DNA of 64,000 bases, taken from assembly GCA_021234155.1 (NCBI GenBank), contig JAJEKV010000075.1, positions 2,783,280 through 2,847,279 of the forward strand. Reading direction: 5' to 3'. Positions 13,482 through 38,448 of the stretch are shown in pieces. The translations under genes and the position numbers were made by a program. Source of the stretch: Isoetes taiwanensis. Its lineage: Eukaryota; Streptophyta; Lycopodiopsida; Isoetales; Isoetaceae. Below the pieces are notes generated by a model. That model had not been told where the DNA came from. It searched no databases and was given only the letters and a program-made list of their open reading frames with translations. The number at the start of each line of letters is the position of its first letter. The first letter of the stretch is position 1.

Positions 13482-16400
13482 TCAAGAGTTCTCATCATCG
13501 TCGTTAGCTTCTTTAGCCACTAATTCTTGCAACTGAGCCCCCACACTACTGGGGATCACCACTGACAATGGCCTGGTCTCTACGGCCCAACCATAGTCTA
13601 TTGTTTTCAAATGTTGGTAGCGTGGCGGGTCATTAGGATTGGGTCTCCAATTCTTGCTCCAGCAATCCCTATACTGCATTGCATATGAGGTTCCCTTTCT
13701 GGCAACAGGCTCAAACCAAGAGACAAACACCTCTTCGTAATGTGGGAGATTAGGGTCCTCTATTGGGTCCTCTTCGACAAAAGCCATCCACGTCGGCCAG
13801 TTATCACGTGGCCTCATTAGCAAGAGCATTCCTTTCTTGACATCTTGGTAGGGGTCGAATATTTCAACTAGGTTCTTGGGTCTATGGGTAAAAGCATGTT
13901 AGGGTGTACCACTTTTGGAACCTGCAAAAGTACATACACTAGGTACTTCTGAACTGGGTACTTTCTCATTTTTCTTTTCATTAAAACTAATACAAAAATC
14001 CAAAATAAAAGTCAAGGACATGGTAATATTCAAAGTTAAGGTAAAGATAATGCTATCGAAGACCAATATATATATATAAAAAGTTATAAAACATACCTTA
14101 TATTGAGATATTATACAGGTACCCAGTACCCAGTCCTGGCTACCTTTTTAGGTACCTTTTTAGTCACTAAATAATACTTTTTAAGGGACACCCTAACATG
14201 CTTTTACCCCTACCCGAGAAAGGCCCTACGTAATGAGATGCTTCAATGTGCTCATCCACAAACACGTTCCAATGCACTTTGCCTGGTGCTGGGCCAGAAA
14301 TCCTAAATGACAGCTCTACCGGGCTGCACGTCCCCAAGCACTCGCAGCAAGGTGGACCAGTAGTCAATAACTTCATTCATATATGTGTTGGACCATGAGT
14401 TATCGCCAGCTCTAGAAATAGCTGCCCAGTGCATCATGTACTTGGCAATAGAAGCTCTCAATGCACCTATATCTTTCAAGCTCCCATATGGCTGCACGAC
14501 CTTAGGTGACCCTCTCGGAATCATAGGTAAACCTTGGGCATCCTCCTTCCACATTCTGATTCCCTTTTCAGGGAGCCACTCCCTATGCCCTGGCCTCATC
14601 TTGTAGAACATTAGTGGCCATCCATCCTTCATGCAGAACTTGAAGAGTAGAGGTTCCAAATGACCACATAAACGGTCCTTCTTATCAGGGATAAAACCTT
14701 TCACGAATTCCTTCCAATTAGGAACCTCTGACACAAGGTAAGGTGAAGGAGACTTTGAACTACACTGCCTGAAGAGTTGCATAAGCTCTAGAATAGTCAA
14801 TGCATCTGATCTTCTCATTAGAGCAGAGTAGTTTCCAAAGAGGGCATCTATGTCATCGTGGGTGTGTCCAACCATCATGAATCCCAGCTGCACTTGATCA
14901 AAGACACCTAACCAAACCAAGTATGACAAGTAAGAGAAAAGATATCTATTCTTATTTTGACCTGAGCAATTATCTAGCTGCAAGTAAAGCCTCCTAGGCA
15001 ACTTGTTCGGTACCATGGGGCCTTTGTTAGGAGGCATAAAATCATTTCTACTGCCATTTACCATTTTTGTCCTAAGGGCATCTGTGTTTAAAATTGCTCC
15101 ACCCCAGCTGCTTTCAGGATGATCTGTATCTCTCAAATGGCCCCAATTATCCTCAGATTTATTCTCCAGTGTCTTCAAGGTATGATTCAAGGATCCCACA
15201 TGAAAATTAGAATCATCAGGCCAGAGGTCCAGTGAGAAGTGGCCCAAGGCACCTATACCATGGCCGTGCATGAGAGCACCTGTAACACTCACCTTCAGTC
15301 GTTCACCCCTCCATACAGACTTTGCTAGCTTTTCTAGACGAGGGACCAGGGTCTTATTCTGATCCATCTTATCATGTATAATGGTTAAAGCGTGCTCAGG
15401 AGATCTATGAGACAAAGCTCTCGGGACCGATAAAAGGCTCCTACATGAAATCTGGGCCGTCATATGTGATTTTCTCTCCATTGCAAGTACCCTTCTTTCA
15501 TTTGGATCTCTGGTCTTAGCAAGCTTTTCCTTTATGACAATACAGGTGTTACACTTAGAAAATGCTATCCTCTTAGCTATTGCCACCTCTGAATGATTCT
15601 CTTTCCAAGCAGACAGAAAGGACGAAGGAGAAATATGCTTGCCTGTCATCTCTGTAACGGTAATATCTACTTCTTGGTGTATATCCTTCTTAGTCAAGAC
15701 TGAAGGTAGCCTCTTAACATTTTGTCTGCTACCCTCGCTCGTAATTTTCGAGCGGTGTGGCATCGTCTCTGCGTTTTCATCTATGAACATAGATAGCACA
15801 GCATTGCCAGCCAAAGTATGAGACCTTGGCTTCTTAGAACCACTATTTCCGTGCTCAGCAATTCTGTGGCCATCATTGAAGAGCTTCTTCCACTTGTAAA
15901 AAGTGGAAATGGGTATGCCATAGGCTTTATGCCATGCTTTCACGCACACCTGTTTGTTATTCAACATCAGGTTGCGGACTACACCATTTTCAGAGCAAAG
16001 ATCTAGCATGTTATATGCAAAGGTTGTGCGCTCCGAGGACTTCATGTTCCAGTAAAAGGTTCTCATGCAAGCTATCTCCTTGGATGTAAAATTTGCACAG
16101 CATCTTTTCATGCAGCACAGTGATGACCTGAAGTCTAAAATAGCCTCAGCACTAGTTTTTCTTTCACATTTGGTCTGTGCTGGACGTGTCCCGGGTCTCC
16201 GATTGACCATGCGGTAAGGTCTCTTTTTGGTGATGCCAATTTCGGGTCTAATGGAGTAAGGTTCATTCTCCACATCCTTCTCCTTCATTGCAACCACGAG
16301 AGTAGAACCTGGAATGTTATCAACGAGCACGAAGACTATGGGCCATCTTACAAGGTCATGCAGTTGGGGCATTTCTGCACAGGCTTGGCAGTGCATAGAG

Positions 16401-16921
16401 ATCTTTTCGGGCATTGGAAATAGGCTCATGATAGTAGCAGCTATCGAGCCTTCCCCTAACTTCACGTCAGCGACAGCATGGTTTGGATCGGCAAAAACGA
16501 TAACACCATAACCGTAAGCCATGTGGCAGCATTCATGCATGAGTGTGCATGCCTTCTCAACTAACTCATCTCTAGAAAGCCCTTGCACATGATTCGTCTC
16601 ATTATTGGCTAATCTCTCATTGCCTCCGACCTGCCAGTTTATGCGTTTAATCTGTCCTGGTGGTGTGCAAACTTCTTCCTCTCTCACAAGCTGACCAGCA
16701 ATGTCCTTCTTGTACCACAACACAAAACTCCCCACAACTTCACCAATTTTTTCTATTTCCAGCTCGGGAATTGGTAGTGGCAACTGTCCATCCAAAACAT
16801 TCACAATCGAAACAACCACCATACCCTCCGGGACAATCGAATTGTGATGGCGCTCGAAATTGTGGACTCTTCCTTCTGCCACCTTTTTCCCCAGCAGATA
16901 AAGCGAGATTACATCCGCCAT
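13482..16921 (-). pseudogene. Element A DUF7869-like DDE-type gene
   Basis: An 872-codon ORF (16921 to 14303) plus a C-terminal piece (13829 to 13482). Residues 1-75 resemble the N-terminal DUF8039-type domain of plant transposon proteins (VAEGRVH, LPLPIPE, VGSFVLWY). A helix-turn-helix-like stretch lies near 324-348 and a CNTC zinc pair at 457-460. The core has IIHDKMDQNKT (Asp517), LYLQLDN (Asp650) and VGHTHDDID (685-692), as in DUF7869 proteins. The spacing fits an RNase H-fold D-D-D triad; that these are catalytic is my inference. The copy is damaged: a frameshift near 14305-14330 precedes SFRISGPAPGKVHW, and a 324-bp MITE (13886-14209) interrupts the C-terminal coding sequence, which resumes as KNLVEIFDPYQDVKKGMLLL and ends in an acidic tail (DDDENS). 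It is divergent from the ParB-methyltransferase gene at 46525, from which element B separates it. Confidence 0.75.
13886..14209. mobile_element. MITE inserted in the DUF7869 gene of element A
   Basis: A 324-bp element with terminal inverted repeats GGGTAAAAGCATGTTAGGGTG. It has subterminal repeats of aggtac and gggtac in both orientations and no coding capacity. The target duplication is not clear (ctat on the left, ctac on the right). A related end (accacttggaaccct, aaaagtacc, ttaggtactt) lies at 60847-60901. Reading of the host gene resumes on both sides, so the insertion is in coding sequence rather than in a clear intron. Confidence 0.75.
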
Positions 16922-18645: not shown

Positions 18646-18650
18646 AGAGA
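18646..18650. repeat. LTR retrotransposon target duplication, left
   Basis: agaga, identical to 31830-31834. Removing one copy and the element restores the minus-strand DUF7869 reading frame exactly. Confidence 0.93.
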
Positions 18651-20296
18651 TGTGACGGTCCAGGGGAATATACGCCATAAATACGTATATTCCTGGATCC
18701 GTCACCATACAAGTCTATCTTCATAGCCTTGTATACCATAGATTGTATACCATAGATTGTGGCATGGCTAAGTTATTCTCATAACTTAGCCAACCATAGG
18801 TTAAGCCATTATCCACGTGGCCTTAACCTATTGGGGCACCGCCACACAGGACTCACCCGATTAGTGCCACGTGGCATCCTAGGTGGACCTAACTTATATA
18901 GGCTTAAACCCTAACCCTAGACCTCTTTCCAGCCCTAGCACCCAGAGACTCACCTACTCGTTCGAAACCCCGTTTCGAACATCGTTTGCTGTGGCATAGA
19001 CTGGTGCAGCAGCCCCAGCAGGGTAGACTCGTTCTTGGAGTAGGAGCGGCATCTCGTGAGTCGGAGACCATGGAGGCACACGGATCTGGAGGGAGAGCTT
19101 CAGGAGCAGGTATGTAGGATAGTGATTGTGATAGCTCATCTGGAAATTAGCATTCCAGATATGCTAGTATTTTGTATCTAGAGTAGAGCCATCCTAGAAC
19201 CCATATTCAACATCTTGAACCCTAATCAAGGAACCTTAACTATTAGTTAGATTTGTATGATTAGGTTAAGATGTTCTTCTTATGATTATTCTCATGATGT
19301 GATGAGTATGGATGTTGGTTGATCTTGTTTGCTCCTCTTGTATTGGGAAGGGGGGTAGAGACCTAGAGCCATATGTAGTATGCTCCTAGAGTAGATCCCT
19401 TAGTTCCTATTAGTTGCGGCTCAGGCATAGGAGCCCACCAGGCTATTGAGGCTATGATATGACTCCAAGCACCATATAACGGGGCTAGAGGGAAAGTGGA
19501 GGGGAGGATCCCTGCCGAAGGGGGCTTCGGGGATCCCATAGTGGGCTAGGCTTATGGTCGGTCACTTAGCAGTGGGCCGAGCATGGGTCCGACACCTCCC
19601 CGGGCAATGGTGTTGCCCTGCCTCTCGAGCTGCAAGTGTTGGCTTGGCTCTCGTTTTGGGGGGTTCAGTCCGGGTACGAATCGTGTGTCGCCACGATTCT
19701 CTAGCCGCCCACGGCACCTCTAGATCCCGGGAAGGGGAGATGCAACCCTTCCCCGCCTCATCGGACCAGGGGAGATGCAACTCGGAGTAGTCCCGATGGG
19801 TGATGCCATGGGATTGCGTGTCCGGAAGGCTAGAGTCTGATCTAGCCCATTTGCAAAGTATGCACAGGAGGGGCGGATGGAGTGGTCAACCCTAGCCATT
19901 GTTCTATGCCAGCCCTCGCCATTGCCATGACTCGGTTGCGCTCTATCTTGAGGCCTAGCCCGGTCACAGTCATCCTCCCACGAAGTCCGGAGCGGGGTAG
20001 GAGCTCTCATGTTTTATGGTTCGTGATTATCATCTTTGCCTTGGTTTATGAGTGATGCACTACCCTTCGAGGTAGTATTTGTATATGTTGATGCTAGTTC
20101 TGACGTGTTATCGCTTCCGCTGTTATAGGAGCCCATAGGGGAAGGGCGCCCAAAGACACCTTTCGTGTTCCCTTCCCGCACTAAGAGTCACCTCGAAAGC
20201 GGGTAGACGAAGGGGCCCATGCGGTTGCCGAGCCGGGATGGGGATTTCTCCGCGGCGCTGCGGCCGGGCGCCGTACGTTTAGCAGGGAGCGTCACA
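18651..20296 (+). repeat. 5' LTR
   Basis: 1646 bp, TGTGACGG to GTCACA. A TATA box (ttatata, 18894-18900) lies in the U3 part, followed by aaaccctaaccctaga, which sits near the probable transcription start. It matches the 3' LTR throughout apart from scattered substitutions and indels, including a duplicated ataccatagattgt in this copy. Confidence 0.96.
18894..18900 (+). promoter_or_regulatory. LTR TATA box
   Basis: ttatata, present at the equivalent place in the 3' LTR (about 30425-30431). It is the probable promoter of the retrotransposon transcript and hence of the H3 ORF. Confidence 0.6.
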
Positions 20297-20297
20297 A

Positions 20298-20309
20298 TGG
20301 TATCAGAGC
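20298..20309 (+). other. Primer-binding site (tRNA-Met)
   Basis: tggtatcagagc, starting 1 bp after the 5' LTR. This is the usual initiator tRNA-Met complementary sequence of plant LTR retrotransposons. Confidence 0.92.
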
Positions 20310-20869
20310 GATGTTCTTGGTTGACCAAGAACTAGCACTGACCATAACCATGAAGTAGTCTAACAGGCCTATAGGGGTGTGAAATAAACATTTCCACCAT
20401 CGAACCGCGAAAATGGGGGAAAAATTTTTCTCCTAGGCAGTGGGTCAGGACTTAGTTCAAGTGTTAGACGAAAGTTGAGCGAGTCAAATTCATCTTCTAG
20501 TAAATTTGGAGTGAAAATTATGCATCTGCATCAAATTTCACCTGAAATGGGTCGAAGAATCATGCCAATCGGAGACCCAGGTGAAAAATGGCGCAAATTC
20601 ATAGGTTGCACTTCGAACCATTAGAAAAATTCGAAAATCTAAGTATAATATCAATTAATATAGATTTAACATATACATTAATAGTTAAATAATTACTAAA
20701 TATGGTGTAATTAATAAGGGGGGCTAATAAATAGGGGTAATTATGGTAGGAGAATATTCCCAGGGACCCTCCTTTTTAAATATCTGACACCTCATTCTCT
20801 CTCTCCAACCCTTCACCTTCACCTCTCTCTTGCTCAGCCTTACGTCACCCATTTCCTGAACCACAAGAT

Positions 20870-21967
20870 ATGGCACGCACCAAACAAACCTACAGGAAGC
20901 CTGGACCAAGACCTACCCTCTCCATGGCGCAGGCAGCAGGGCGACATGTGAAGAAGATCCCGGAGCACCTCCGACCCAAGAAAGGGGAAGAGGAGCTTCC
21001 CCCCAGCAGCAGCAGCGGCGGCGATACGTATCATGATGCCGAGGAGAGCCCCAGCAGCATCTCGTCATCGGGAGGCACACAGAGAACAGATGAGTCTCGC
21101 CACTTCGGGCCCTCGGATACCGAGGTGGAGGAACAGGTGGAAGAGCAGCACCACCACCAGACCGACGAAGCGGGCCCTTCAGCGCCCAAAAAGAAGGGGA
21201 AGGAAAAAGTCGCGGAGTGGCCAGAGGAGAGGGCCGCCAGGAAGAAGCGGGAGCGGGAGAGGGAGCTGAGGGAGCAGGAGAGGCGGACCAAGAGGAGGAA
21301 CGACGGCCCTCGCCGGACCGTCGTTATAGAAGAGGCCCGGCCGGAGGAGGAGCACCAACAGGAGGGCGACGGAGACGAGGAGGAAGAAGAGCAGGAGGGG
21401 GACCCCGACGCTAGGCCACCCTACCCTAAGTGGCCGGAACCACCTAAGGTGGTGAAGAAGCAAAAGGTAGGGGAGCGGGCATTCGCGCTCCAGCAGGACC
21501 GCGAGTTTAAGCGGAAGATGGTGGCATACAAGGAGTACCTTCGTCGTTGGACGAGGTACAATGAGTGGTATTGCCGCCAGGAGGTGCAGCGCGTCGTGGA
21601 GGGCGGCAGGCCGAAGAAGAACCAGCCCAAGCCACCCCCACCGAGACCGGAAAAACCCAAGAGGGTTCACCACGGGCCGAATAGCACATACGCCCGGGTG
21701 TTTAGGGAGATTCGGCACTTCCAGATGTGCACGAATCTCCTGATAAGGAAGGCGCCCTTCGAGCGTCTCCTTAGAGAGGTTTTGCAGCAGTTCCGGACCG
21801 ATTACAGGGTTACCCCTCTAATGACCCGGGCTCTGCAAGAGGCTTCCGAAGCAGAGCTGGTCCAGCTCTTCGAGGAAGGGAACCTCTGCGCTATCCATGC
21901 TAAGAGAGTTACCCTTATGCCCAAGGATATTCACTTAGCACGAAGGATTCGCAGAGAGAGGCCTTAG
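20870..21967 (+). CDS. Histone H3 with a long insertion, encoded by the retrotransposon
   Basis: An intact 365-codon ORF, the first after the primer site. It starts [10 protein letters not shown], the H3 tail start with Lys4 and Lys9 in register (Ala7 replaced by Tyr, Ser10 by Pro). [11 protein letters not shown] near residues 26-36 recalls the H3 VKKPHRFRPG segment. About 235 extra residues follow: Ser-rich, then highly charged and helical, then proline-rich. Residues 273-365 form a full H3 histone fold: VFREIRHF (alpha N), [15 protein letters not shown] (alpha 1), a loop 1 of canonical length (FRTDYRV), [20 protein letters not shown] (alpha 2) and [18 protein letters not shown] (alpha 3). 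It ends RRERP, where H3 ends RGERA. The unextended loop 1 argues against CENH3. Expected to act in the nucleus, perhaps with H4. Its retention while pol has decayed is striking. That it enters nucleosomes is inference. Confidence 0.95.
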
Positions 21968-22195
21968 GCCTCAAATTTTGTAAATTTTGTAGGAAAGCTA
22001 AATTTTCATGTAACTATGTTTCTTATTAATATAAAAGTTATTTTCCCTCTATAATTAGAAAAATGTTGTATGCTTGAAATATAGGAAATAGAACCCAATT
22101 GTGGTAGAATTCTTCATAGCATGTCTAGAAACACCCTAGAAATCATGACTACAACAAAATTTTGGCAAAAAAATCATCTAAAATGCTGAAAATCG

Positions 22196-22490
22196 GGCCA
22201 ACCGGGTGAGACCGCGCCTAGGGCCTCTGCGTTCCCGACGCAGGCGCGTTTCGCGCGGATTCACCCGACTGGGCCCAAAATCAAGCTTCTAGATGTCAGT
22301 TTTGCTCAAAATAAGTTGCTAGTTAGGTTAGAATTGGCCCAATTAGCCATATTAGCATCTTCAAATTCCCTAAATTGACCAAAAATTGGCCCAAAACAGG
22401 CCAACCGGGTGAGACCGCGCCAAACGCGTTTGCGTCCGCGACGCGGAGGCCATCCGCGCGGATTCACCCGGGTCAGGCCATCTTTGAGCC
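22196..22490 (+). repeat. Two long hairpin repeats between retrotransposon ORF1 and ORF2
   Basis: Two copies (about 22196-22270 and 22401-22476) begin gccaaccgggtgagaccgcg and end gcgcggattcacccg. Each can pair cgggtga with tcacccg and cgcg with cgcg, giving a long imperfect stem. The loops differ. They lie in a leader-like non-coding gap of about 800 bp between the H3 ORF and ORF2. Confidence 0.7.
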
Positions 22491-22772
22491 AAATTAGCCA
22501 AATTTGATCCAACCAACTGCCATGTAGTGTTTCTTGCCTTGTTTTGCTTAAGTTTGCACTTCATGGTAGTTCATTTGGACACCCAGAGCCATAGAACCAA
22601 GGTCGTCTTAGGTAGGTACTTTTTTTGCACGAACCCCGAGGTCACCCATAGTCTATAAAAAATAGGCCCCATTTGCCATTTTTCTTCCTACAGAACTGCT
22701 CCCAGCCCCTTAGGCGATTTTCTGATCCTCCACTGATCCTTGCAAGCCATTTTCTACACCCTTTCCTGCTCA

Positions 22773-24158
22773 ATGGCGCCCAGCAACTTTGAGAGATGGT
22801 ACAATGCTGCCAGCCATATCCATCAGCTTCCAGTAGATCAAGCCTTCTCTGTGTTTGATCACTTGTTTGATCTTCACGCAACTTTGACTAGAACACCCTA
22901 CTACACAGACATTATGTGCCAATATGACCAGCAGGTCCTGCCTTGGGAAGTTAGACTGCCTCCTAGGGGAGGGAATTGGGTTTCCCTTGAGACACTTACC
23001 CAAGCCTTAGGTCGAGAGTTGGCAGGATCCAAAGGCAAGAAGCAGCTATGGGATAGGACTAGGACCATGCCCGATTACATGACCTGCAGACATAATAGGC
23101 ATAGGTACCTTTCAGCTCAGACAGCCCTTGCCCTCTTCATGCACTATAAGTCAATCAACAAAGTAGGGGAACCCTCTGTTCAGCCCTTAGACTTAGCGCC
23201 ACTTGATACCCGTAGAGCCCAGGATCAAATCCTGAATATAGAATCCTCCGCCTACGAATATTATGGCACGACGTCGGGGGCACCATCTCTGCAGATCCAT
23301 GAAGACTACGAGCAGCTAGGGGAGCAGAACCCAGAATGGGAGAGCAGGGAGGCAACAAGAATGAAGAGGTACGCGTCGAGGCACGACGACGACATGAGAA
23401 CAGCTACCGACCCACCAGTCGGCATCACAGCTCTGTCACCGATAGTCATCGACGGGGAGGAGTACATTTTTGCAAATGACATCCTCAACTTGTCCTATTG
23501 CCAGGAACAGGGTCTTCGAATCGACGAGCTCTTGGGCATGATAGCACACGGGAAGAGCACAGACCTCATCGACTACTCATACCAGGAGATCCCAAGGGAG
23601 CTGGCGGAGAGACACTCTTATGCTGGGGAGACAATGTCGGATATAGCAGCCTATCAGCAGATAAGGGAGATCTATCGACAGCAGGAACCTATCATCTCAG
23701 AGGAGGAGTTCCAGCAGATACAGAGCACACTCTACAAACCAGGGAAGGGCCCAAGCTCAAGCCGACCAGTTCGAGCCAGGAGCATGAGGGAAGGGTCCAG
23801 CAGCATCAACTTGGACAACGCAACCAGCATGTGGAGGGATCATGAAGACCTTATGGCGGTGGATGCCTACGGCGAAGCAGCTCAAAGGAAGGGCACTGGA
23901 TCGCGAGGCGTAGGGAAGGGCGGCACGCCGCTACTATCTTCCAGCCCTCAGCCAAGGGCAAATGATAGTCTTCCACAAGGAGTTCAGCCCAAGGGGGGAA
24001 GAATCCGTGGCACTTCTCATAGCACTTTCGGGCTTCGGGCAGCACTCGAAGATATACGCCCATGCCGATCACATCATTCTTTTTCAACGAGGCGGTCAAG
24101 GCCCATTGCCTCGACTTTGGGAGAGGGCACCTTAGGGATGCAACACTTTCGATGGTAG
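22773..24158 (+). CDS. Retrotransposon ORF2, unknown protein upstream of gag
   Basis: About 461 codons from the ATG at 22773 (MAPSNFERW), the first good start after a short leader. I do not recognise a domain. The N-terminal 150 residues look globular (SVFDHLFDLHATLTRTPYY, SLETLTQALGREL, TALALFMHY). The middle is acidic and polar. The C-terminal third is Ser, Gly and Arg-rich (KPGKGPSSSRPVRARS). A TAG at 24156 is followed in frame by about 47 more codons of similar composition to a TGA near 24299, so the TAG may be a CAG-to-TAG change. Part of the region near 23900-24150 also reads well in another frame, so an indel is possible. It could be a nucleic-acid-binding or structural accessory protein; no function is assigned. 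Confidence 0.6.
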   Translation: MAPSNFERWYNAASHIHQLPVDQAFSVFDHLFDLHATLTRTPYYTDIMCQYDQQVLPWEVRLPPRGGNWVSLETLTQALGRELAGSKGKKQLWDRTRTMPDYMTCRHNRHRYLSAQTALALFMHYKSINKVGEPSVQPLDLAPLDTRRAQDQILNIESSAYEYYGTTSGAPSLQIHEDYEQLGEQNPEWESREATRMKRYASRHDDDMRTATDPPVGITALSPIVIDGEEYIFANDILNLSYCQEQGLRIDELLGMIAHGKSTDLIDYSYQEIPRELAERHSYAGETMSDIAAYQQIREIYRQQEPIISEEEFQQIQSTLYKPGKGPSSSRPVRARSMREGSSSINLDNATSMWRDHEDLMAVDAYGEAAQRKGTGSRGVGKGGTPLLSSSPQPRANDSLPQGVQPKGGRIRGTSHSTFGLRAALEDIRPCRSHHSFSTRRSRPIASTLGEGTLGMQHFRW

Positions 24159-24582
24159 CAGAACAACGCCGAGAACTCCCGAACCGAGATGGCCCGAGCA
24201 CTTGAAGGAAGATCGACGAGGAACATCTTGCGCAACCTCGGCAAAGGCCTCCGATTCAGGGATGTCAAGAACTTCTTCAGGCTTTCGGGAGGCCATTGAA
24301 TAGTTGTAAAATTTTCTTAAGTTTTGTGCTAAATGTTTCTTGTACCCATTGTGCTAAGATATATCTACCTTATCATGTAATCCTTATGTATTAATGACTA
24401 TTAACTGTTTTGTCAATGTAAGGCTTTGTATGATTTCTTATAACTAAAGATAATTCAATTGCAAGTAAAATTGATCAACATCTAACCCAAATAAAATGTA
24501 TTGATGATCAATCCTTGCAGCAAGGAACTCAAGTGCAGGATCTCAAGATCAGCACCGACCACGCAATTGGGTACCAAGGAAC

Positions 24583-26328
24583 TTGTTTGGCAGAGAACAG
24601 GAAGACTTTGAGCAGGATATGTCACCAGAGGCAGTCAACGCAAGGTTGGTGCAGATGAGGAACCAGATGCAACACCTCATCAACTGGGCGACACCTCTCA
24701 TGAATGCACAGGAAGATGGTCCTCCACCTCCACCTTGTTTTCCGGGTGGTGACGAAGTCCCTCAGCAGGAAGGGGAGGGCAACCAGGGGAACGTCAGGGA
24801 TAGGAGAAGGAAGAGGAGAACCAGGAGTCCATCATCATCTAGCTCCAGCTCATCAGATAGCTCTTCCAGTGAGGACAGCTCTGGCTCCGACAGTCAGTCG
24901 GGCACACCTAAAGCAAGGAAAAGAGCAAGAAAGACAGATGACTATCAGAAAAAGGTGGATAGTGCTATGAGCAATGTATGGAAGACAAGGAAGCTCGGCC
25001 AGTTCTCAGGGAAAGACAGATCAGGCATGGAGGCTGAAGCATGGCTTGATGAAATGGAAGAATTTGGCAACTCATACGGTATGAAAGACAAGGACATAGG
25101 GAAAGTTGCTACAGCTAACCTTATTGGACCGGCAAGGATCTGGTGGAAGGGATATGCTAAATCCAACAAGCTGAAGAGGAACAATTGCAGGTTTAAGACC
25201 TTCAGCAAGGCTTTCCGCAAGCACTATGTGCCAAGGTCTCATACTAGTAGACAGATTCAGCAGTTTTACAGGTTGAATCAGGGTAGCTTATCAGTGGCTA
25301 AGTATACCGAAGAATTTATGAGGCTCAGGCTGCATGTTCCTGGAGTCTCAGAGAGGCAAGCCGTGGATACTTACATTGAGGGGTTGAACAGCAATATCAA
25401 GAGGCTTGTTAGAGCAATCAACCCGAAGTCAGTTGCACAGGCCGAAGATAAAGCTATAAGTTTAGAAGAGGCACCAGCAACTCCAGCAGAGAAGCAGTCA
25501 ACCTTCAGGGGTAAGAGTTCAGGGCAGTATCAGGGACAATATCAGGGTAAGCAATCAGCAGCTACACCATCAGGGAGTCAGCAGCAAGGTAAGGGTCAGA
25601 GCAAAGCTTTTGGGGACCGTAAGCCACAGAATGCATCAGGGGGCAGCGCTCTTAAGCGTCTCCTAGACAGTCTGCCGAAGGAAAAGAGACAGGAATGCAT
25701 TGAGAAAAAGCTATGTTTCAGGTGCTTCCAGCCAGGGCACCGAACACATGATTGTCCATTCGTCATGCAGTCAGCCTTGGCAGAACTCTTGGATTGGGAC
25801 TCCCCAACAGAAGCGGACGAGGACGACGACCAGCAGGAGGGCCAGGACTTCATAGATGGTGAGTGCCACATGACAGGTGATATAGAGAATCAGTCAACTG
25901 TCATCGCTGCGGACGGGATCATAGATAGTAATCCTTATGTAGTCCTCATAGATACAGGTAGCTCTCATAATTTTGCATCTCCTAGATTGGCTGCTCTAAT
26001 GAAGAACAAGGTATTGAAGTCTAAGCCAAGGCCAGTAGCTATGGCAAACGGCGCCATTCGGCACACTAAGGGGAGGAGGATCACCTTTGACATAGACCTT
26101 AGTGGGGCTAAGTGGCCGATGGGAGCAGAAGTCATGGACATCGGAAGATATGATCTGATAGTGGGGATGGAATTTTTGAAGCCAGCCAAAGCCATGATTG
26201 ATTGCGACCGGAATGAAGTCACCATGACGGCACAGGCGGCAAAGTTGATAGTGAAAGGTAAGAAGCTAGATTCTCCCTATGCGGTGTATTTCTTTGAAGC
26301 GACTAAGGAAGAGTATAGAAAGGAATAA
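24583..26328 (+). CDS. Retrotransposon gag and aspartic protease
   Basis: About 581 codons. The frame is open upstream to about 24517, where a tccttgcag splice acceptor-like site occurs, so the true start may be a spliced one or the ATG at 24619. Domains in order: acidic and Ser-rich N-terminus (residues 40-110), Ty3 gag core (about 140-290: EAWLDEMEEF, NLIGPARIWWKG, FSKAFRKHYVP), Gln/Gly-rich linker, one CCHC knuckle (CFRCFQPGHRTHDC), and a protease with the catalytic DTG in VVLIDTGSSHNFASP and a later FDIDLSGAKWPMGAEVMDIG segment. Function: capsid assembly, RNA binding and polyprotein cleavage. This ORF is intact. Confidence 0.9.
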   Translation: MFGREQEDFEQDMSPEAVNARLVQMRNQMQHLINWATPLMNAQEDGPPPPPCFPGGDEVPQQEGEGNQGNVRDRRRKRRTRSPSSSSSSSSDSSSSEDSSGSDSQSGTPKARKRARKTDDYQKKVDSAMSNVWKTRKLGQFSGKDRSGMEAEAWLDEMEEFGNSYGMKDKDIGKVATANLIGPARIWWKGYAKSNKLKRNNCRFKTFSKAFRKHYVPRSHTSRQIQQFYRLNQGSLSVAKYTEEFMRLRLHVPGVSERQAVDTYIEGLNSNIKRLVRAINPKSVAQAEDKAISLEEAPATPAEKQSTFRGKSSGQYQGQYQGKQSAATPSGSQQQGKGQSKAFGDRKPQNASGGSALKRLLDSLPKEKRQECIEKKLCFRCFQPGHRTHDCPFVMQSALAELLDWDSPTEADEDDDQQEGQDFIDGECHMTGDIENQSTVIAADGIIDSNPYVVLIDTGSSHNFASPRLAALMKNKVLKSKPRPVAMANGAIRHTKGRRITFDIDLSGAKWPMGAEVMDIGRYDLIVGMEFLKPAKAMIDCDRNEVTMTAQAAKLIVKGKKLDSPYAVYFFEATKEEYRKE

Positions 26329-27556
26329 GGTGGATTACATCTTGAGGATGGAATCAGTTGAGCCAGGCAAGCAGGATGGAAGTGACCCAAAGGGAAATCA
26401 GTTGCCCAGGCAGATAGCAAGGCTTATTTCAGAGTTCAAGGATGTATTTCCGGATGAAATCCGGCACCGCCACCTTATAGGGGTGTGGAATGTAAGATCA
26501 CATTGGCTCCGGATCACGAAAGCCTACCAGTAAGGCGCCATATAGAATGAGCACCCCAGAATTGATTGAGCTCAAGAAACAGCTTCAGGAATTGCTCGAG
26601 CTTGGATTTATAAGAGCAAGTGTGTCTCCTTTCGGAGCACCTATACTCTTTGTGAAGAAGAAAGATGGGAGCTTAAGAATGTGCATAGACTATCGCCAGC
26701 TTAATAAGCAGACGATAAAGAACTAGTATGCATTGCCAAGGGCAGATGATCTAATGGACCAGTTACAAGGAGCAAAGGTATTCTCTAAAATTGATTTGAG
26801 GTCGGATACCATCAGATAAGAATAAAAAGAGGATATCCATAAGACCGCTTTGAACAGCGGTATGGTCACTTTGAGTTTACATAGAATGCCCTTTGGACTA
26901 TCGAATGCTCCAGCAACGTTTATGCGCCTCATGAACGACATCTTCAGAGACTTCTTGGATGAGTTTGTTATTGTCTTCTTCGACGACATCCTAATCTACA
27001 GCAAGTCCCTTGAGGAGCATTGTCAGCATCTCAGGAAAGTGTTGGAGAAGTTGAGACGTCATCGGTTGTATGGGAAGCTCTCTAAGTGCCACTTTGCAAC
27101 AGGCCGAGTGGAGTACTTGGGGCATGTAGTAACATCCGAGGGAATCTCCACGAGATCCATCTAAAATTGAGGCAATAGTTGATTGGCCAGCTCCAAGGAA
27201 TGTGGCGTAAGTAAGAAGCTTTCGGGTTGGCGGGATATATTACGAAAAGTTCGTCAAGGACTTTGGGCGGCGGGCGCCCCTTGTCGGACCTCACTAAGGC
27301 CAAGAAGATTAAGGATTGGACTAGCCATTGGTTAGAGAAAGTCCAAGCTTCTTTTGAGAAGCTTAAAGAGGCCCTAACGACAGCACCAGTGCTTGTTCTC
27401 CCGGATCCGAGTAAAGATAAGTTGGTAGCAACAGATGCAAGCAAGATAGCAACAGGGGCAGTCTTGATGCAAGAAGGAAGGGTAGTCGCCTACGACTCGA
27501 AGAAGATGATGAACGGCGAAAGCAACGCTACCCAACCCATGATCAGGAGCTGCTAG
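26329..27556 (+). pseudogene. Reverse transcriptase and RNase H start, broken
   Basis: Continues pol after the protease. Reverse transcriptase motifs are recognisable in several frames: [20 protein letters not shown] near 26648, MPFGLSNAPATFMRLMNDIF near 26886 and VIVFFDDILIYSKSLEEH (active-site DD) near 26968. The first part carries an in-frame TAG near 26725 and frameshifts near 26515 and 26810-26830. The RNase H start is at 27340-27520 (VLVLPDPSKDKLVATDAS). The lesions make this copy unable to make its own pol, so it would need helper copies. Ty3 family. Confidence 0.9.
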
Positions 27557-27570
27557 CCATTGTCAGGGCA

Positions 27571-28668
27571 TTGAGGATATGGAGGCATTATCTGCTGGGA
27601 AGGAAGTTTCAGTTGGATACCGATCACCAGAGCCTTCAGTATCTCTTCACCCAGCCACTCCTCAACTTAAGACAAAGGAGGTGGATGGAATTCCTTGAGG
27701 AGTATGATTTTGATATTATATATAAGCCTGGTAAGCTTAATGTTGTAGCAGATGCCCTCTCCAGGAGACCATTTCAGACAAGGACGCATTGTAATGCGAT
27801 TTCCACTCTTTCGAGTGAGTTTGGCAAGAAGATTGAGGAGTCCTTGCCAACAGATGTGGACTTCAAGGAGGTATGGGAAAGCCTTTCCAAGGAAGCCAGA
27901 ACAGATAAGGAGCGGGAAGCCTTCAAGCATTATAAGAAGGAAGGCAACCTGTTGTATCACAAGCATAAGTTGTGTGTGCCCGAATCATCAGGGGTAAGGA
28001 AGCTAATTCTTCATGACACACATAACAGCCCAATAGCAGGGCATGCTGGCTTCATGAAGACCTATTTCAAGATTCGAAGTAGCTACTTCTGGCCAGGAAT
28101 GAAGAGGCAGATAGCTGCATATATTCGGGATTGCCAGCTTATGTCACTGGAGACCAAAAGCGAGCAACTTCGGATTCCAGGTGCTCTTGAGCCATTGGGG
28201 GTGCCAAATGCAAAGTGGGAGGTCATAAGCATGGATTTCATCACAGGTCTCCCTAGAACTCTTCGAGGCAAGGATGCATTGATGGTTGTCGTAGATAAGT
28301 TATCTAAGATGGCACATTTTGTGCCTTGCAAGACTACTGACACCGCATTAGATACTGCCAAGTTAATTGTAAGGGAGATTTTCAGACTCCATGGCATGCC
28401 TCGGGAGATAATATCTGATAGGGATTCCAAGTTTATGAGTGCCTTCTGGCAGGACCTCTTCAGCACCATTCAGACGAAGCTCTCCATGAGCACGGCATAT
28501 CATCCCCAAACAGATGGCCAGACGGAGAGGACGAATCGGATCATTGAAGACATGCTTCGGAACTATGTGTGGAACAAGCAGTCCAAGTGGGATGAGTACA
28601 TCCACTTGGTGGAATTCGCCTACAACAATTATGGCGGGAGTCATCTCAGATGTCTCCTTTCATGGTAA
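27571..28668 (+). CDS. RNase H end and integrase core
   Basis: 365 codons. It starts inside RNase H (YLLGRKFQLDTDHQSLQYL, then NVVADALSRR). The integrase zinc region (LILHDTHNSPIAGHAGFMKT, then DCQ) lacks the first cysteine of the usual CxxC. The integrase core has MDFITGLPRT (first Asp), REIISDRDSKFMSAFW (second Asp) and STAYHPQTDGQTERTNRIIE (Glu). The frame is lost at about 28640 just before the next part. Function in the family: insertion of cDNA into chromosomes. Confidence 0.9.
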   Translation: MRIWRHYLLGRKFQLDTDHQSLQYLFTQPLLNLRQRRWMEFLEEYDFDIIYKPGKLNVVADALSRRPFQTRTHCNAISTLSSEFGKKIEESLPTDVDFKEVWESLSKEARTDKEREAFKHYKKEGNLLYHKHKLCVPESSGVRKLILHDTHNSPIAGHAGFMKTYFKIRSSYFWPGMKRQIAAYIRDCQLMSLETKSEQLRIPGALEPLGVPNAKWEVISMDFITGLPRTLRGKDALMVVVDKLSKMAHFVPCKTTDTALDTAKLIVREIFRLHGMPREIISDRDSKFMSAFWQDLFSTIQTKLSMSTAYHPQTDGQTERTNRIIEDMLRNYVWNKQSKWDEYIHLVEFAYNNYGGSHLRCLLSW

Positions 28669-29321
28669 ATTACGGGTACCAGTGCTTAACCCCGGATACC
28701 TGGCACAATCCTGTGTCCAAGGTAGAAGTATCCCAGCAGATGTTAGGGGATATGCAACAGCTAGTGGAAGAAGTAAGGGGTTATTTATTGGCAGCAAGAA
28801 GTCGGCAGAAGAGTGTAGCCGACAAGCACAGGACCGTAAGAGAATTCAAGGTAGGCGATAAGCGTCCGTTGAAGATAAAGGTGAAGCAAGCCAAGCCAGC
28901 AGTTGGGAGCTGCAAGAAGCTTGCCCCTAGGTGGGCTGGTCCGTTCAAGATTTTGGAGAGAGTGGGCTCTCAAGCCTACAAGTTGGATCTTCCAGCCCAT
29001 CTCAAGGTTCACAAGGTCTTCCACGTAAGTTTATTAAAAAGGCACAATCCTAACCCTGAGGAGGTTTTGGATACTCCAACCTTGTTGGAAATGACGGAGG
29101 AGCAAGTAGAAATAGTGCCTGAATTGCTTCTTGATAAGTCATTCAAGAAGACTAGGAGGTCTCAGTTCCTCCAGTATTTGGTTAAGTGGAAGCACTTACC
29201 CGTGGAAGATGCGACATGGGTATTGAAGCAAGACTTGGAGAAGCAATACCCAGAGTTTATGAAGGAGTTTGATGGGCGAGTCGTCTCCGACTTGGTCGAC
29301 CCCGACTTGCCAGGTGGTTAG
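28650..29321 (+). CDS. Integrase C-terminus with chromodomain-like segment
   Basis: 223 codons in a frame shifted from the integrase core, overlapping it by about 20 bp. Residues 1-100 are the integrase C-terminal part (SPFMVNYGYQCLTPDTW, then LAPRWAGPFKILERVGSQAY and VFHVSLLKRHNP, the GPY/F-like module). Residues 165-205 read FLQYLVKWKHLPVEDATWVL, a chromodomain pattern (YLVKWKx....ATWE-type). In chromoviruses this module steers integration to marked chromatin, often H3K9 methylated. The usual aromatic cage is only partly apparent, so reader activity is uncertain. Confidence 0.85.
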   Translation: MSPFMVNYGYQCLTPDTWHNPVSKVEVSQQMLGDMQQLVEEVRGYLLAARSRQKSVADKHRTVREFKVGDKRPLKIKVKQAKPAVGSCKKLAPRWAGPFKILERVGSQAYKLDLPAHLKVHKVFHVSLLKRHNPNPEEVLDTPTLLEMTEEQVEIVPELLLDKSFKKTRRSQFLQYLVKWKHLPVEDATWVLKQDLEKQYPEFMKEFDGRVVSDLVDPDLPGG

Positions 29322-30173
29322 CTAGTATGTTGTTAGTTAGCCTTAAGCCTGGCGCATGCATTCTAGTTACTAGGGTGCATGTGCCAGAACCTTGGATCGT
29401 GTGGGCGATGATGGGATACACCTTTAAGGCATTCTCTAGGCCACACGCACCAAGAGGTGCGCATGACCATTAGGGTCATGTGAGTGAGGAATGAGGCATG
29501 GTGGGCGATGATGGGACATCGATCGGATGATCTCTATGCCACGATGCGGGGTACGCACACCTGGCCGTAGGAGGGTCATGGAGAAGGTTAAAGTGATCAT
29601 GCGCGATGATGGGATCGTGAGACGTTCCCTAGCTTCAAACCCGTGGGGCATGATGCACTAGGGGTACTTCGGCACCTAAACCGAAAGTACAAGGTAGCAC
29701 TTTCGATCATGGGCGATGATGGGAGCATCTTAAATGATCCTTAAGCTCAAATCCGAAAGGGCCATGATCTTGGGCAAGGTAGTAGGACAACCTTGAGTCA
29801 GTAGTTCGGCTCAAGGAGGTAAGAGGGGTGGTCCCCTAAAACCACAAATTATTAACTAAACTAACGTAATGTGCTCCTTTTGCAGGCAAGTAGAAGGTGG
29901 ACTTCAACGAGGAGCGCATTACGAGAAGATAGGGGGAGCCATAATTTAGATTATGAACCCTAATAACTCTTACAATAATGTTTTGAATTATCGTAAGAAA
30001 TAACCGTGTTAAGGCTATATAATTTTGTATAAGTACAAATATAGCCTAAATTTTTGACTTGAACTAATAAAACTTGATTGCTAAACTAAACTAAAGGTTA
30101 TGACATGTTGTTGCTTGTGCAGGCATAAGGTAGGTTCGTCACCTTAGCGCAATGCTGAGGACAGCATTGTCCT
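29322..30173 (+). other. Non-coding stretch before the 3' LTR with GGGCGATGATGGGA repeats
   Basis: No ORF of note. It holds four copies of gggcgatgatggga (one reads gcgcgatgatggga), near 29402, 29500, 29602 and 29708, about 100 bp apart. Each is followed by t or c-rich text and a clause ending ctctaggc, ctctatgc, cctagctt or cttaagct. This is a regularly spaced degenerate repeat. Its role is unknown; packaging or export of the RNA is possible. Confidence 0.7.
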
Positions 30174-30186
30174 AAGGGGGGGAGAA
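30174..30186 (+). other. Polypurine tract
   Basis: aagggggggagaa, directly before the 3' LTR, the usual plus-strand DNA priming site. Confidence 0.92.
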
Positions 30187-31829
30187 TGTGACGGTCCCGG
30201 GGGAATATACATGCATAAATACGTATATTCTGGATCTCACCATACAAGTCTATCTTCATAGCCTTGTATACCATAGATTGTGGCACTAGGGGGCATGGCT
30301 AAGTTATTCTCATAACTTAGCCAACCATAGGTTAAGCCATTATCCACGTGGCCTTAACCTATTGGGGCACCGCCACACAGGACTCACCCGATTAGTGCCA
30401 CGTGGCATCCTAGGTGGACCTAACTTATATAGGCTTAAACCCTAACCCTAGACCTCTTTCCAGCCCTAGCACCTGAGAGACTCACCTACTGCTTTCGAAA
30501 CCCCGCTTCAACATCGCTTCTTGTGGGCATAGACCTGCAGGCCCCCGGCCAGGTAGACTCGTTCTTGGAGTAGGAGCGGCATCTCGTGAGTCGGAGACCA
30601 TGGAGGCACACGGATCTGGAGGGAGAGCTTCAGGAGTAGGTATGTAGGATAGTGATTGTGATAGCTCATCTGGAAATTAGCATTCCAGATATGCTAGTAT
30701 TTTGTATCTAGAGTAGAGCCATCCTAGAACCCATATTCAACATCTTGAACCCTAATCAAGGAACCTTAACTATTAGTTAGATTTGTATGATTAGGTTAAG
30801 ATGTTCTTCTTATGATTATTCTCATGATGTGATGAGTATGGATGTTGGTTGATCTTGTTTGCTCCTCTTGTATTGGGAAGGGGGGTAGAGACCTAGAGCC
30901 ATATGTAGTATGCTCCTAGAGTAGATCCCTTAGTTCCTATTAGTTGCGGCCTGTGCATAGGAGCCCACCAGGCTATTGAGGCTATGATATGACTCAGCAC
31001 CATATAACGGGGCTAGAGGGAAAGTGGAGGGAGGATCCCTGCCGAGTGGGGGCTTCGGGGGATCCCATAGTGGGCTAGGCTTATGGTCGGTCACTTCATG
31101 TGGGCGAGCATGGGTCCGGACACCTCCCTGGGGCAATGGTGTTGCCCTCCCTCGAGAGCTGCAAGTGTTGGCTTGGCTCTCGCTTTTGGGGGTTCACCGG
31201 TGCACAATCGTGTGTGTCGCCACGATTCTCTAGCCGCCCACGGCACCTCTAGATCCTGGGAAGGGGAGATGCAACCCTTCCTGCCTCATCGGACCAGGGA
31301 GATGCAACCTGGAGTAGTCCCGATGGGTGATGCCATGGGATTGCGTGTCCGGAAGGCTAGAGTCCTGTCAGAGCCTGATCTAGCCCATTTGCAAAGTATG
31401 CACAGGAGGGGCGGATGGAGTGGTCAACCCTAGCCATTGTTCTATGCCAGCCCTCGCCATTGCCATGACTCGGTCTGCTCTATCTTGAGGCCTAGCCGGT
31501 CAGTCATCCTCCTTACGAGTCTGAGCCGGGGTAGGAGCTCTCATGTTTTATGGTTCGTGATTATCATCTTTGCCTTGGTTTATGAGTGATGCACTACCCT
31601 TCGAGGTAGTATTTGTATATGTTGATGCTAGTTCTGACGTGTTATCGCTTCCGCTGTTATAGGAGCCCATAGGGGAAGGGCGCGCAAGACACCTTCGTGT
31701 TCCCTTCCCACACTAAGAGTCACCTCAGAGTGCGGGGTAGACGAAGGGCCCATGCGGTTGCTGAGCCGGATGGGGGATTTCCTGCCGAGCGTACGGCCGG
31801 GCGCCGTACGTTTAGCAGGGAGCGTCACA
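30187..31829 (+). repeat. 3' LTR
   Basis: 1643 bp, TGTGACGG to GTCACA, matching the 5' LTR. It carries cactaggggg where the 5' LTR has a duplicated ataccatagattgt, and small indels in the GC-rich half. Confidence 0.96.
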
Positions 31830-31834
31830 AGAGA
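31830..31834. repeat. LTR retrotransposon target duplication, right
   Basis: agaga, matching 18646-18650. Confidence 0.93.
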
Positions 31835-34035
31835 GCATGGAACTAGTATTGGGGATGGTGCGAATGAATTGAATACCTGCTGCTGGCTGCCACTGCAAGG
31901 ATGTGGCATATTTCTTTCCTTGTAAGATGCCCTTGCCATCTACAAGTGAAATTTTGATCTGATGCTGAAATGTAATGTTTCTCAAGGGCTCAATAGCACA
32001 GTGACCCAGTTGATCTCTCCGAAAAATCCATTCTTTGAAATCATAAGTTTCTTCCAATAACTCGATGTCTGGACGAGGATTGTAGGAATCTTGGATAACC
32101 TCAATCATTGCTGGTAGGCTGAGAGCTTTTTTTCGAGCAAGACGTTTAGAGAACCTACTGAACATCTGATCAATTTGATCGTGTGTATGACCAACAAGCA
32201 GGAAACCAATCTTCACCTTCTTGAAGATTTGTTTCTCTACTAGCATAGCACAGTAAGCAAACAACGCCTGATTCTTATTTTCCCTTGTCGTGTTGTCTAG
32301 CTGAAGATACAGAACCGGTGGTATATGTTCTAGATTGGAAAGAAGCTTATTCAATATTGTGATAGTGAGATTTGGATCAGCATGAATATTTGGATAATTC
32401 AAAAATGCCTTGCAAGATAGTTTTCCATTAAATACCATAGCACCAACAACATGCAGATGTATGAAATCTTCTTCAGCAGCATCCTTAGGCACATTGACAA
32501 AATGTGGTAGGGTGGTCTTCTTCTGGTCCATTCCATCAATAACAACTGATATGTAGTTGAGTGGTTGTTCCAGTGCTTTCTTCCTATGTTTTGTCAATTT
32601 TCTCCTTTCCAAAGATTGTTGTTCCCTGTGCTTGTTCAGTTTCTCCTTCAATGCATCTGAAATGAAAATATGTTTAGGAAAGAACCTACTTTTGAGTAGA
32701 ACTAGGCAAGAACACGTCCTGGAAGCTTACTTTTAGTGTGAAGTGTCCTTGCATTTTGTCTCTGAGCTTTTAATTCAGAGCATGTAGCACAAACAGACAT
32801 CCGGTGCTTTCTAGGAATGGACATGCGAGAAAACTCTTTTTTCCAGAGCACAGTGAAGTAAGAGTAGCAGACATGGCGTTCTCCAGCCTCGACACACATG
32901 TCCTTGTAATTATCGTAGACTTCACGTTTCCTGAAGTTGTCACTCAAGTGGTACATGGGGCTGTTAGGGAGTTTCTCGCAACTCCTTAAAGAAACCTTCC
33001 ATCCAGGAAACACATTGAAGGGCATGAATTCTGGATATACCTCCTGAATGGCAGTAGTCATTAATGCCTGGATTCTTGTCAAGCCTTTTCTTCAGGCGGT
33101 GAAGTCGTCTGCTGCCTAAAGCATGAATCAATTTGAAGGCCGTTTGACAGACGGCGTGGCCACCAGCTGTGTAAGTAAACTTCTCACCACAATCTGGCCT
33201 AATATTGAAGGCTAAGTAGCCCCTTTGGTCTAGCAGAGTCATTGAACTGTAAGTATCACGAATCAACCTCAACTCCTTTAGTCCAATCTTAAGCAAACAA
33301 CGTTGAGAACAACAGTGCTTTGTATGTGTTGCCCGCAAGTGAGCCTCGTCCATGAGTTTCTTTCTTCTAACGGTTGTACATGCTTTCTTGTGTAAGTTAC
33401 GCTTAAGATTCTTACTTGCAGGGGCTTTGAATTCGAACATGGAGTCTTGTGGCTGAGAGATCTTGTGGCTGTGTTTCTTCGTCTGAGAGATCAACATGAG
33501 GTGTACTTGTAGATGCTGAGAGGTTTGATGTGGGCAAGTCCTGGGGGGAGGTGCTTTCCCTCTCTCTGGGAAAAAGTAATCGAGGCTGGTGACGTAGTTG
33601 ACCAGCTCCTGAAGTGTCGTAGTAGAACACAGGAGTTGCGTGTCGCTGACTGCTCCCACTTGTTGTAGTACCATTTAGTGAAATGGATGGAGTTGGTGTG
33701 ATTTGCCTCCATGGAGGGAGCCTACGGTGGACTATGGGCGACGTACTAAAATGAACTGGAGTAGGTAGTCTGAGCTCTCTAGCCTGTGGTGGAGTAAAAC
33801 GCATTGGTGGGGGCAAACGACGTTCAGGAGCAGGGTGTGGTGGAGTAAATTGAACTGGTGGTGGAAGCCGAGGTGGTCATGCTGGAGTAAGCTCAACAGA
33901 GCTGGGTGTTGGAATGTCGGAGCTAGAATATTCGTGACTACTTCCTGGTGTCTGTTGAGGAGGTGTGAAAGTCATTGCAGGAGGGAGCCTGCGAACATGA
34001 GTTGGAGGCTCTGCAGTTCTTTTCTCTCGAGCCAT
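31835..34035 (-). pseudogene. 5' part of element B DUF7869-like gene
   Basis: Starts at ATG 34035 (MAREKRTAEPPTHVRRLPP). The N-terminus has proline-rich repeats (RRLPPAMTFTPPQ, RLPPPVQFTPP, RRLPPPMRFTPPQ). A TGA at 33879-33877 interrupts them in frame; CGA would fit. The next block (CCSQRCLLKIGLKELR, AFKLIHALGSRRLHRLKKRL) matches the CCMKRCC and helix-turn-helix region of the element A protein. It is reached by a short intron or frameshift near 33410. Another frameshift lies near 33060. Then come CATC, a 74-bp GT-AG intron (32730-32657), and a core with VVIDGMDQKKTTLPHF, LYLQLDNTTRENKN and LLVGHTHDQIDQMF. The order of acidic residues is as in A. The LTR retrotransposon then cuts the gene; the rest is at 17750-18645. 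Several lesions make it a pseudogene. Confidence 0.75.
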
Positions 34036-36538: not shown

Positions 36539-37616
36539 CGTGGCTGGTCTTCCGTGTGCAATTAAATAGTAGACTTCACAACAAACGCTTGCTCGCCATT
36601 CAACACTAAAATACTTGTGTTCGATCGTTGACAGGTGTGGGATCTTCAAGAAAGAATATTTTGTATGTTCGAAGATGGTGAGCTGAAAGAACAATCTACC
36701 TCTGCCGGAAAAAAACCAAAAAAAAATAATGAGGCAAAACAAAAAAACATGAGCATCGTACCCTGGACGCAGCTACAGGGTTTGAAAAGCAAAGAAATTT
36801 TTGTAAGACCTAGAAAAAGTTGTGGCCAAAGAATTCACTCTCGACGAAATGGCCAAAGAAGCTAAGACGTAAGCCACATTTCTTATGTCGTGTTCTTTTT
36901 TTCCTAATTTTGTCTGACCACATTTTTCCCTCTACAGTCAGAAAGACATTGTCACCTGCCAGGCAGAATTAATGAAGCAACTAAACCTGGAGGACTGGGA
37001 GGAGTGCAAGTCTTTATATCCAACCTCTACTACAGATTCTATTATCAGAGAGCACGCTGTTAATTTCAGTGGCTGGGTAAGTTGTGCAGAAAATACTTTT
37101 TGTTTTTGTGCCTTTGTCTCACAGTTTTCTTACAGAATAAGAAGAAAGGCCTACCAACAGGATTTTTAAACCTGGTTCGTAGGGCCAAGGAGGAGAGGCA
37201 GAGACTGAAAGCAATTGAGCAAGGAAAGCAAGTCAGCACTAGCAGTTTTGACACTACTTACGAGAAATTTACTACATTTGGTCAGGACGTCCAGTACAGG
37301 GTTGTTCAGGGTGACTGCACGAGGCTGGGGACGCTTTTAGACAAACAAAACTTTACGTTATGCATTGCAGATATTCCTTATGGCTTCAAAATCAAGGATA
37401 GCACTTTTGACGAGGAGGCTTTTACTCACGTGCAAGTCCGTTCTTTCTTGGATGGCCTAAAAGAAGTCACGACATCCGGCCGGAGGGTCATCATTTTTCA
37501 TTCCGACTGCGGACGATGTCGGTGCTAAAGCCATTGGGAGTCATGCAACGCGGGCTTCGAAAACTGCGTATGGTAAGCTTTGAATTTCTTGCTTTTCTAG
37601 TTACTTTAACACCACG

Positions 37617-38434: not shown

Positions 38435-38448
38435 GTATAAATTTATAC
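38435..38448. repeat. Element B palindrome overlapping the methyltransferase stop codon
   Basis: GTATAAATTTATAC begins at the last sense codon (GTA) and includes the TAA stop (38438-38440). This is the last of 25 units and the only one touching coding sequence. Confidence 0.95.

Follow-up and report, generated by a model that had tools for sequence, protein, structure and literature searches.

Histone H3 folds at the end of an accessory open reading frame in chromodomain Ty3/gypsy retrotransposons of Isoetes taiwanensis

Introduction

Transposon silencing acts through marks on host histone H3. Does a retrotransposon of the lycopod Isoetes taiwanensis encode an H3-like protein of its own, and is this protein kept for a use? 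The question is raised by an open reading frame (ORF1) in a stretch of 64,000 nucleotides (called the window throughout; coordinates refer to it). An original prediction made from the sequence alone had read this frame as an intact histone H3 with an insertion of some 235 residues, carried as cargo of an LTR retrotransposon. Here, we describe ORF1 and its element, the occurrence of related copies in the genome, the residues that these copies keep or alter, and the selection acting on them, and we weigh the roles that the protein may have.

Results

ORF1 combines an H3-like tail, an insert and an H3 fold

ORF1 (20870-21967, plus strand) encodes 365 amino acids from its ATG start and is thus 229 residues longer than the 136-residue host H3, which makes the predicted insertion length a fair estimate. 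Its translated N-terminus reads ARTKQT, with K4 and K9 present, and its C-terminal end is an H3 fold. Three parts follow one another on the plus strand: the H3-like tail (20870-20899), which is conserved except at residue 7 in the copies termed type A below; an insert (20900-21655) with a charged and acidic part followed by a basic and aromatic part; and the fold region (21656-21964), whose residues 49-131 are 61-70% identical to host H3 in type A. The Pfam Histone model matched residues 251-361 with E = 3.6e-28, and the top PDB match was a histone H3 chain (E = 2.5e-31), the best 60 of 177 PDB sequences at E <= 0.01 being examined. In the protein database, H3 proteins head the best 120 of 3,108 matches, and the ten examined are tandem H3s. 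A chance match is excluded by the Pfam and PDB E-values together with the relatives in the genome, and the predicted H3 tail start and complete H3 fold end are thus borne out. The insert has no recognised homologue: for residues 40-272, none was found among 2,534 candidates drawn from 5.8 billion proteins. Single-chain models of the window ORF aligned with 13 H3-bearing proteins and of the fold alone were of low confidence (mean pLDDT 44.9 and 48.1, respectively).

ORF1 lies inside a chromodomain Ty3/gypsy element

The element spans 18651-31829. Its 5' LTR (18651-20296, plus strand), which begins with TGTGACG and ends with CGTCACA, and its 3' LTR (30187-31829, plus strand) were recognised as direct repeats, most of the LTR being aligned and the edges inspected, and the 5-bp target site duplication AGAGA stands at the LTR edges on both sides (18646-18650 and 31830-31834). 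An exact primer binding site, TGGTATCAGAGC (20298-20309, plus strand), presumably of the initiator tRNA-Met type, precedes ORF1, which is followed on the same strand by ORF2 (22773-24158; no Pfam match above cut-off, relatives in the genome), gag with aspartic protease (24583-26328; Pfam Retrotrans_gag 1.6e-16, RVP_2 1.2e-9), a reverse transcriptase piece (26850-27164; RVT_1 1.3e-21), the RNase H end with integrase (27571-28668; RT_RNaseH, Integrase_H2C2 and rve) and the integrase C-terminus with a chromodomain (28650-29321; SH3_Tf2-1 1e-20, Chromo 1.5e-11). The domain order gag, PR, RT, INT, together with the paired LTRs, target site duplication and primer site, defines a Ty3/gypsy element; the Chromo match at the integrase end makes it a probable chromovirus, and a conserved extra ORF within the LTRs makes it a carrier of an additional ORF (aORF). 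The gag also carries a CCHC knuckle of its own, weakly scored by Pfam.

The two LTRs differ at 118 of 1,580 aligned sites (raw K2P 0.079). These differences are clustered, with long identical stretches between the clusters, which may reflect local sequence error or gene conversion, and because of this clustering no age is given from the K2P value.

Copies with an H3 fold recur at the same place

The genome examined comprises 1.66 Gb in 1,110 contigs. Exact motifs of the H3 fold (AIHAKRVT) and of the H3 tail (MARTKQT) occur 2,436 and 2,727 times genome-wide, host H3 genes included, the integrase motif HPQTDGQT 2,951 times, and the H4 motif YALKRQGRT three times, a count from which H4 genes could be hidden by an intron; each reversed-pattern control gave 0. 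H3 rather than H4 has thus been amplified, and on the scale of the integrase. A profile search of the contigs, starting from 8,705 unconfirmed first-look candidates, gave at least 150 histone matches, all above the curated cut-off. The top 15 fit the model as host H3 does, and the eight retrieved are 136 amino acids each; many further matches sit in longer open frames of up to 494 amino acids. With the window ORF as query and 112 of 21,558 first-look candidates scored, the same genome gave at least 113 rows, most of them full length and, besides the ORF itself, at 77-98% identity; 31 of the 113 contain a stop codon.

At least four ORF1 types, A to D, terminate in an H3 fold. Type A, sampled as the window and 40 further copies, all from stop-free rows, consists of the H3 tail, an insert of about 220 residues and the fold (41 copies). 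The other types were sampled as 20 stretches, each 9.9 kb long and containing another H3 match, chosen for best Pfam scores and long ORFs; 15 of these loci are of type B, four of type C and one of type D. Types B-D carry a different N-terminal domain ahead of the fold, common to all three at 30-34% identity and unlike type A; among 5.8 billion proteins searched, no relative of this part was found. No close ORF1 relative was confirmed when viral contigs were scanned.

The position of ORF1 is shared as well. An exact primer site lies upstream of it in 15 of the 20 B-D stretches (L011, L020, L022 and L025 have no exact site and L019 has one downstream only), and a same-strand gag match lies downstream in 18 of the 20, the exceptions being L016 and L020. 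In six more type A copies the leader is shared at 88-94%, and an exact primer site is found in five; both of the two followed downstream have ORF2 and gag, with broken frames. The 113 ORF1 and 93 ORF2 rows include 19 neighbouring pairs (the window among them), all on one strand and in the same order, with gaps of 764-813 bp in 17 and of 1,009 and 4,838 bp in two; within 6 kb, no pair in any other arrangement was found among these rows. An exact integrase motif lies 2-12 kb downstream of 21 of the 87 fold motifs listed, upstream of two and on the other strand of none; the remaining 66 have none at that distance downstream, as expected of decayed or truncated copies or of host genes.

An H3 fold between a tRNA-Met-type primer site and gag is therefore a recurrent arrangement and not a one-off capture, and with the LTRs and the AGAGA duplication bounding ORF1 and the same layout at tens of loci, its description as element cargo stands. 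The clustered LTR differences make local sequence error conceivable in the window, and one might suppose that the arrangement arose from an assembly join or from a host H3 gene, or a pseudogene of it, lying inside the element; because it is repeated at tens of loci and the ORF1-ORF2 gap hardly varies, we regard such an artefact as extremely improbable. The reverse transcriptase frame is indeed disrupted in the window copy, where only a piece matches RVT_1, while ORF1 is open. The earlier argument that H3 is favoured for this reason fails nevertheless: several other copies retain long open pol frames (1,246 amino acids in L023), and the copies with intact ORF1 were hand-picked.

ORF2 accompanies ORF1

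The 93 rows of ORF2 relatives in the genome, many of them open, come from 92 scored of 9,568 candidates. Many align with residues 1-384 only, and the end of the window ORF2 may therefore be atypical. No tblastn match at 1e-4 was found between the window ORF2 and the 20 B-D stretches; a comparison with B-D ORF2 profiles gave a weak similarity (hhalign E 6e-4 at a probability of 28), which leans weakly towards a single ancestral cassette. Between ORF1 and ORF2, 22190-22267 and 22393-22470 are direct repeats of 78 nt (81% identity), and the ends of each, CCGGGTGA...TCACCCG, could pair with one another.

The fold keeps contact residues and the tail loses Ser10

Sixty-one folds (41 of type A, 20 of types B-D), all chosen among well-kept copies, were compared with residues 49-131 of host H3. 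None of the 61 has an insertion or deletion, which agrees with the PDB result in assigning them to the H3 type. Identity to host H3 is 84-88% in types B-D, against the lower range given above for type A. R72, R83, C110, H113, K115, R116, T118 and K122 are kept in all 61 folds, and R49, R63, R69 and D123 in 60; we take these to be DNA-contact and H3-H3' contact positions. Type A has lost R42 (Gly in 40 of 41 copies), K56 (M, Q or H), K79 (V or R) and F84 (V or I), and it differs from host H3 at the chaperone positions 87-90. In type B, K64 is replaced by Arg in 14 of 15 folds, and type C has H87 and L90, presumably as in plant H3.3.

The type A tail reads ARTKQT[Y/A]RK without Ser10, compared with ARTKQTARKS in H3, and types B-D have another N-terminus. 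K4 is present in 40 and K9 in 39 of the 41 type A copies, and residues 1-6, 8 and 9 are the same in 39-40 of them. Residue 7 is Y in 21, A in 18 and G in one, one copy being without a tail; residue 10, present in 40 copies, is P, T, F, Y, A or G and in none of them Ser. Tyr7 and Pro10, highlighted in the original prediction, are thus correct for the window copy, and the loss of Ser10 is general in type A; Tyr7 is just one state among the copies, however, and Pro one of several at position 10.

The fold is under purifying selection in the sampled copies

Nei-Gojobori pairs were calculated on the parts of ORF1. The median dN/dS of the fold was 0.060 in type A (41 copies; 516 usable and 303 saturated pairs), 0.051 in type B (14 copies, L017 being omitted for its run-on end) and 0.016 in type C (4 copies, 6 pairs). 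Higher medians were obtained for the type A tail and insert (0.106) and for the N-terminal part of types B (0.151) and C (0.146), and every usable pair was below 1. Both these ratios and the residue counts lean to well-kept copies, type A being drawn from stop-free rows and B-D from best Pfam scores and long frames; copy choice alone is insufficient to account for the low ratios, because pooled pN in the type A fold is 0.077 at a pS of 0.56. Purifying selection has thus acted on the fold among the sampled copies, and dN/dS between copies lies far below the value of 1 that the original prediction had named for a one-off capture.

The part of PMC7264820 considered here reports that LTR elements capture genes, and ORF1 could in principle be a passenger, an H3 captured once and carried along without function. 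Fold ratios of 0.016-0.060 despite far diverged synonymous sites, and a fold retained while the remaining cassette diverges, make this highly improbable.

The N-terminal parts turn over around a constant fold

Of the ten pairs from eight loci that were compared along the element, five join loci of different types (B, C or D). In these five, DNA identity is 75-85% at the LTR end and 82-89% in gag, and it falls to 45-63% over the leader, the ORF1 N-terminal part and ORF2, with 69-72% in the H3 fold. Unrelated DNA, when aligned, is expected to reach about 45-63%. The gag protein of type D is 88-95% identical to that of most B loci (78% to L017, 71% to L024), and within type B the ORF1 N-terminal part diverges more than gag (62% vs 84% in L023/L018). 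By these comparisons leader, ORF1 and ORF2 would have been swapped between elements or have diverged fast, the H3 fold being the constant part. Type C ORF1 adjoins a gag near type B in L027 and more distant gags in L022 and L026; in L025 (type C), whose gag row is pieced together, gag is also distant, and its RT and INT lie close to those of type B. These mixed gags are a possible sign of cassette exchange.

Exact fold motifs lie within 1.5 kb of 13 of the 99 MARTKQT starts listed, 11 near 1.0 kb and two at the 333 bp that separate these motifs in host H3. The remaining 86 were considered as tail mimics that lack a fold, an interpretation rejected for all four retrieved, which contain broken or diverged H3-fold remnants. 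Three of these four relics (L077, L078 and L080) have a fold remnant of the form HFQ...LIP, of which LIP is CENH3-like, and they perhaps belong to an older H3-bearing family. The broken MARTKQT relatives suggest that the history is deep and has left many relics.

Origin of the fold

Between the element folds and host H3, pS is 0.76-1.09, and because synonymous sites are near saturation the capture appears old. In a fold tree of about 100 columns, type A forms a long branch (0.69, support 100/100), and types C and B are supported at 100/97 and 99/92; the order of host H3, B-D and A is not separated in this tree. AU tests with two provisional CENH3 sequences rejected neither a clade of type A with CENH3 (p 0.48) nor a single clade of all element folds (p 0.42).

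We considered whether the fold is derived from, or mimics, the centromeric histone CENH3 and directs the elements towards centromeres or away from them. The AU result for type A with CENH3 would allow it, and type A reads HFQ..TNLLI and RVTLM, which, like the HFQ...LIP of the broken relatives, we take to resemble plant CENH3. CENH3 has a longer loop 1, however, and this insertion is absent from all 61 folds; the type A tail is an H3 tail, and the two provisional CENH3 sequences stood apart in the first fold tree (99/95). A centromeric derivation is accordingly a distinctly unlikely account.

Discussion

The reading that we prefer, at a probability of roughly 60%, is that of a chromodomain Ty3/gypsy lineage with a selected accessory ORF, whose fold would pair with host H4 and whose variable N-terminal regions would serve as effectors that change chromatin. 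The putative accessory cassette would consist of ORF1 and ORF2 between primer site and gag. Through its intact fold ORF1 is expected to pair with host H4 and may enter H3-H4 complexes or nucleosomes, and the effector would be the N-terminal region, that is, the H3 tail together with the insert in type A and the other domain in types B-D. The likeliest benefit would be altered chromatin, either where copies of the element lie or where integration takes place, and this could mean countering silencing or guiding the integration complex. A more specific version, which we hold only tentatively, is that the elements deploy H3 variants of their own in nucleosomes with host H4, with marks kept (K4 and K9 in type A) or lost (Ser10, K56, K79), thereby rewriting chromatin at their copies and possibly offering a ligand to the chromodomain of their own integrase. 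If so, the turnover of the cassette while the H3 fold stays constant would record an arms race.

ORF1 might instead act in the particle or on the cDNA, where its basic histone fold, by itself or together with host H4, would package or protect nucleic acid like an extra nucleocapsid. Its place upstream of gag and the retention of most of the DNA-contact arginines examined suit such a role. Chromatin action is favoured over packaging because, besides most DNA contacts, the H3-H3' residues and the type A K4 and K9 are kept, which seems to go beyond what DNA binding needs; moreover, R42 is lost in type A, and gag has its own, weakly scored knuckle. Packaging is therefore an unlikely alternative, though one to be taken seriously.

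The proposed chromatin role has partial parallels. DNA methyltransferase (DNMT) retrotransposons are reported from Symbiodinium, in hundreds of copies, and from the charophyte Klebsormidium (KnitGypsy-Dnmt3); in the portion of that paper considered (PMC5890265) they resemble the present case in that a retrotransposon took up a host chromatin gene, and differ in that they carry a DNA-methylation enzyme whereas the element here carries a core histone; histones are mentioned there a single time. An orchid Ty3/gypsy element with an AlkB m6A demethylase domain likewise combines the backbone with an extra functional domain, and the screen of 121 angiosperm genomes in the same paper yielded 15 extra domains, its screen section naming no histone (PMC9289625). 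The aORFs of plant LTR retrotransposons are extra conserved ORFs besides gag-pol, some with nuclear proteins; in the sections of PMC7264820 considered they lie between pol and the 3' LTR and histones go unmentioned, whereas ORF1 lies between primer site and gag. Viral histones include bracovirus H4 and giant-virus H3, core histones with an altered N-terminus in a viral genome (PMC9145170), and bracovirus H4 joins host nucleosomes, as stated in the part considered of PMC5423620; the former source, in its corresponding part, treats histones of DNA viruses and leaves retroelements unmentioned, whereas ORF1 belongs to a retroelement. A host-factor review, taken into account in part, is also among the nearest literature (PMC12786077).

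Chromoviruses share the gag-PR-RT-INT-chromodomain backbone with the present element, and we know of none with an H3 ORF. In agreement with the original prediction, a survey of titles and abstract starts, among the papers listed from 5.39 million open-access ones and with subscription papers mostly outside it, found no description of an H3-encoding retrotransposon. If the chromatin role is true, an element lineage with its own H3 would answer the silencing defence in a new way, and "viral histones" would extend from DNA viruses to retroelements. The element H3s would also provide a natural variant series (no Ser10, M or Q for K56, new N-terminal domains) on what H3 must keep to work.

Other features of the window

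Two minus-strand ORFs match DUF7869 (31812-32651 and 14303-16921; Pfam 4.7e-54 and 1.8e-42). The former abuts the 3' LTR, and the element may therefore have inserted into a gene of this kind or next to one. An ORF at 37862-38440 has similarity to N6_N4 DNA methylases (6.6e-16), in a eukaryotic genome, and the ORF preceding it (37082-37528) has a weak methyltransferase match below cut-off. The DUF659 ORF at 8244-9215 is presumably of the hAT-transposase type, and a long (CT)n/(AG)n run at 1187-1597 translates as Ser-Leu and Glu-Arg ORFs.
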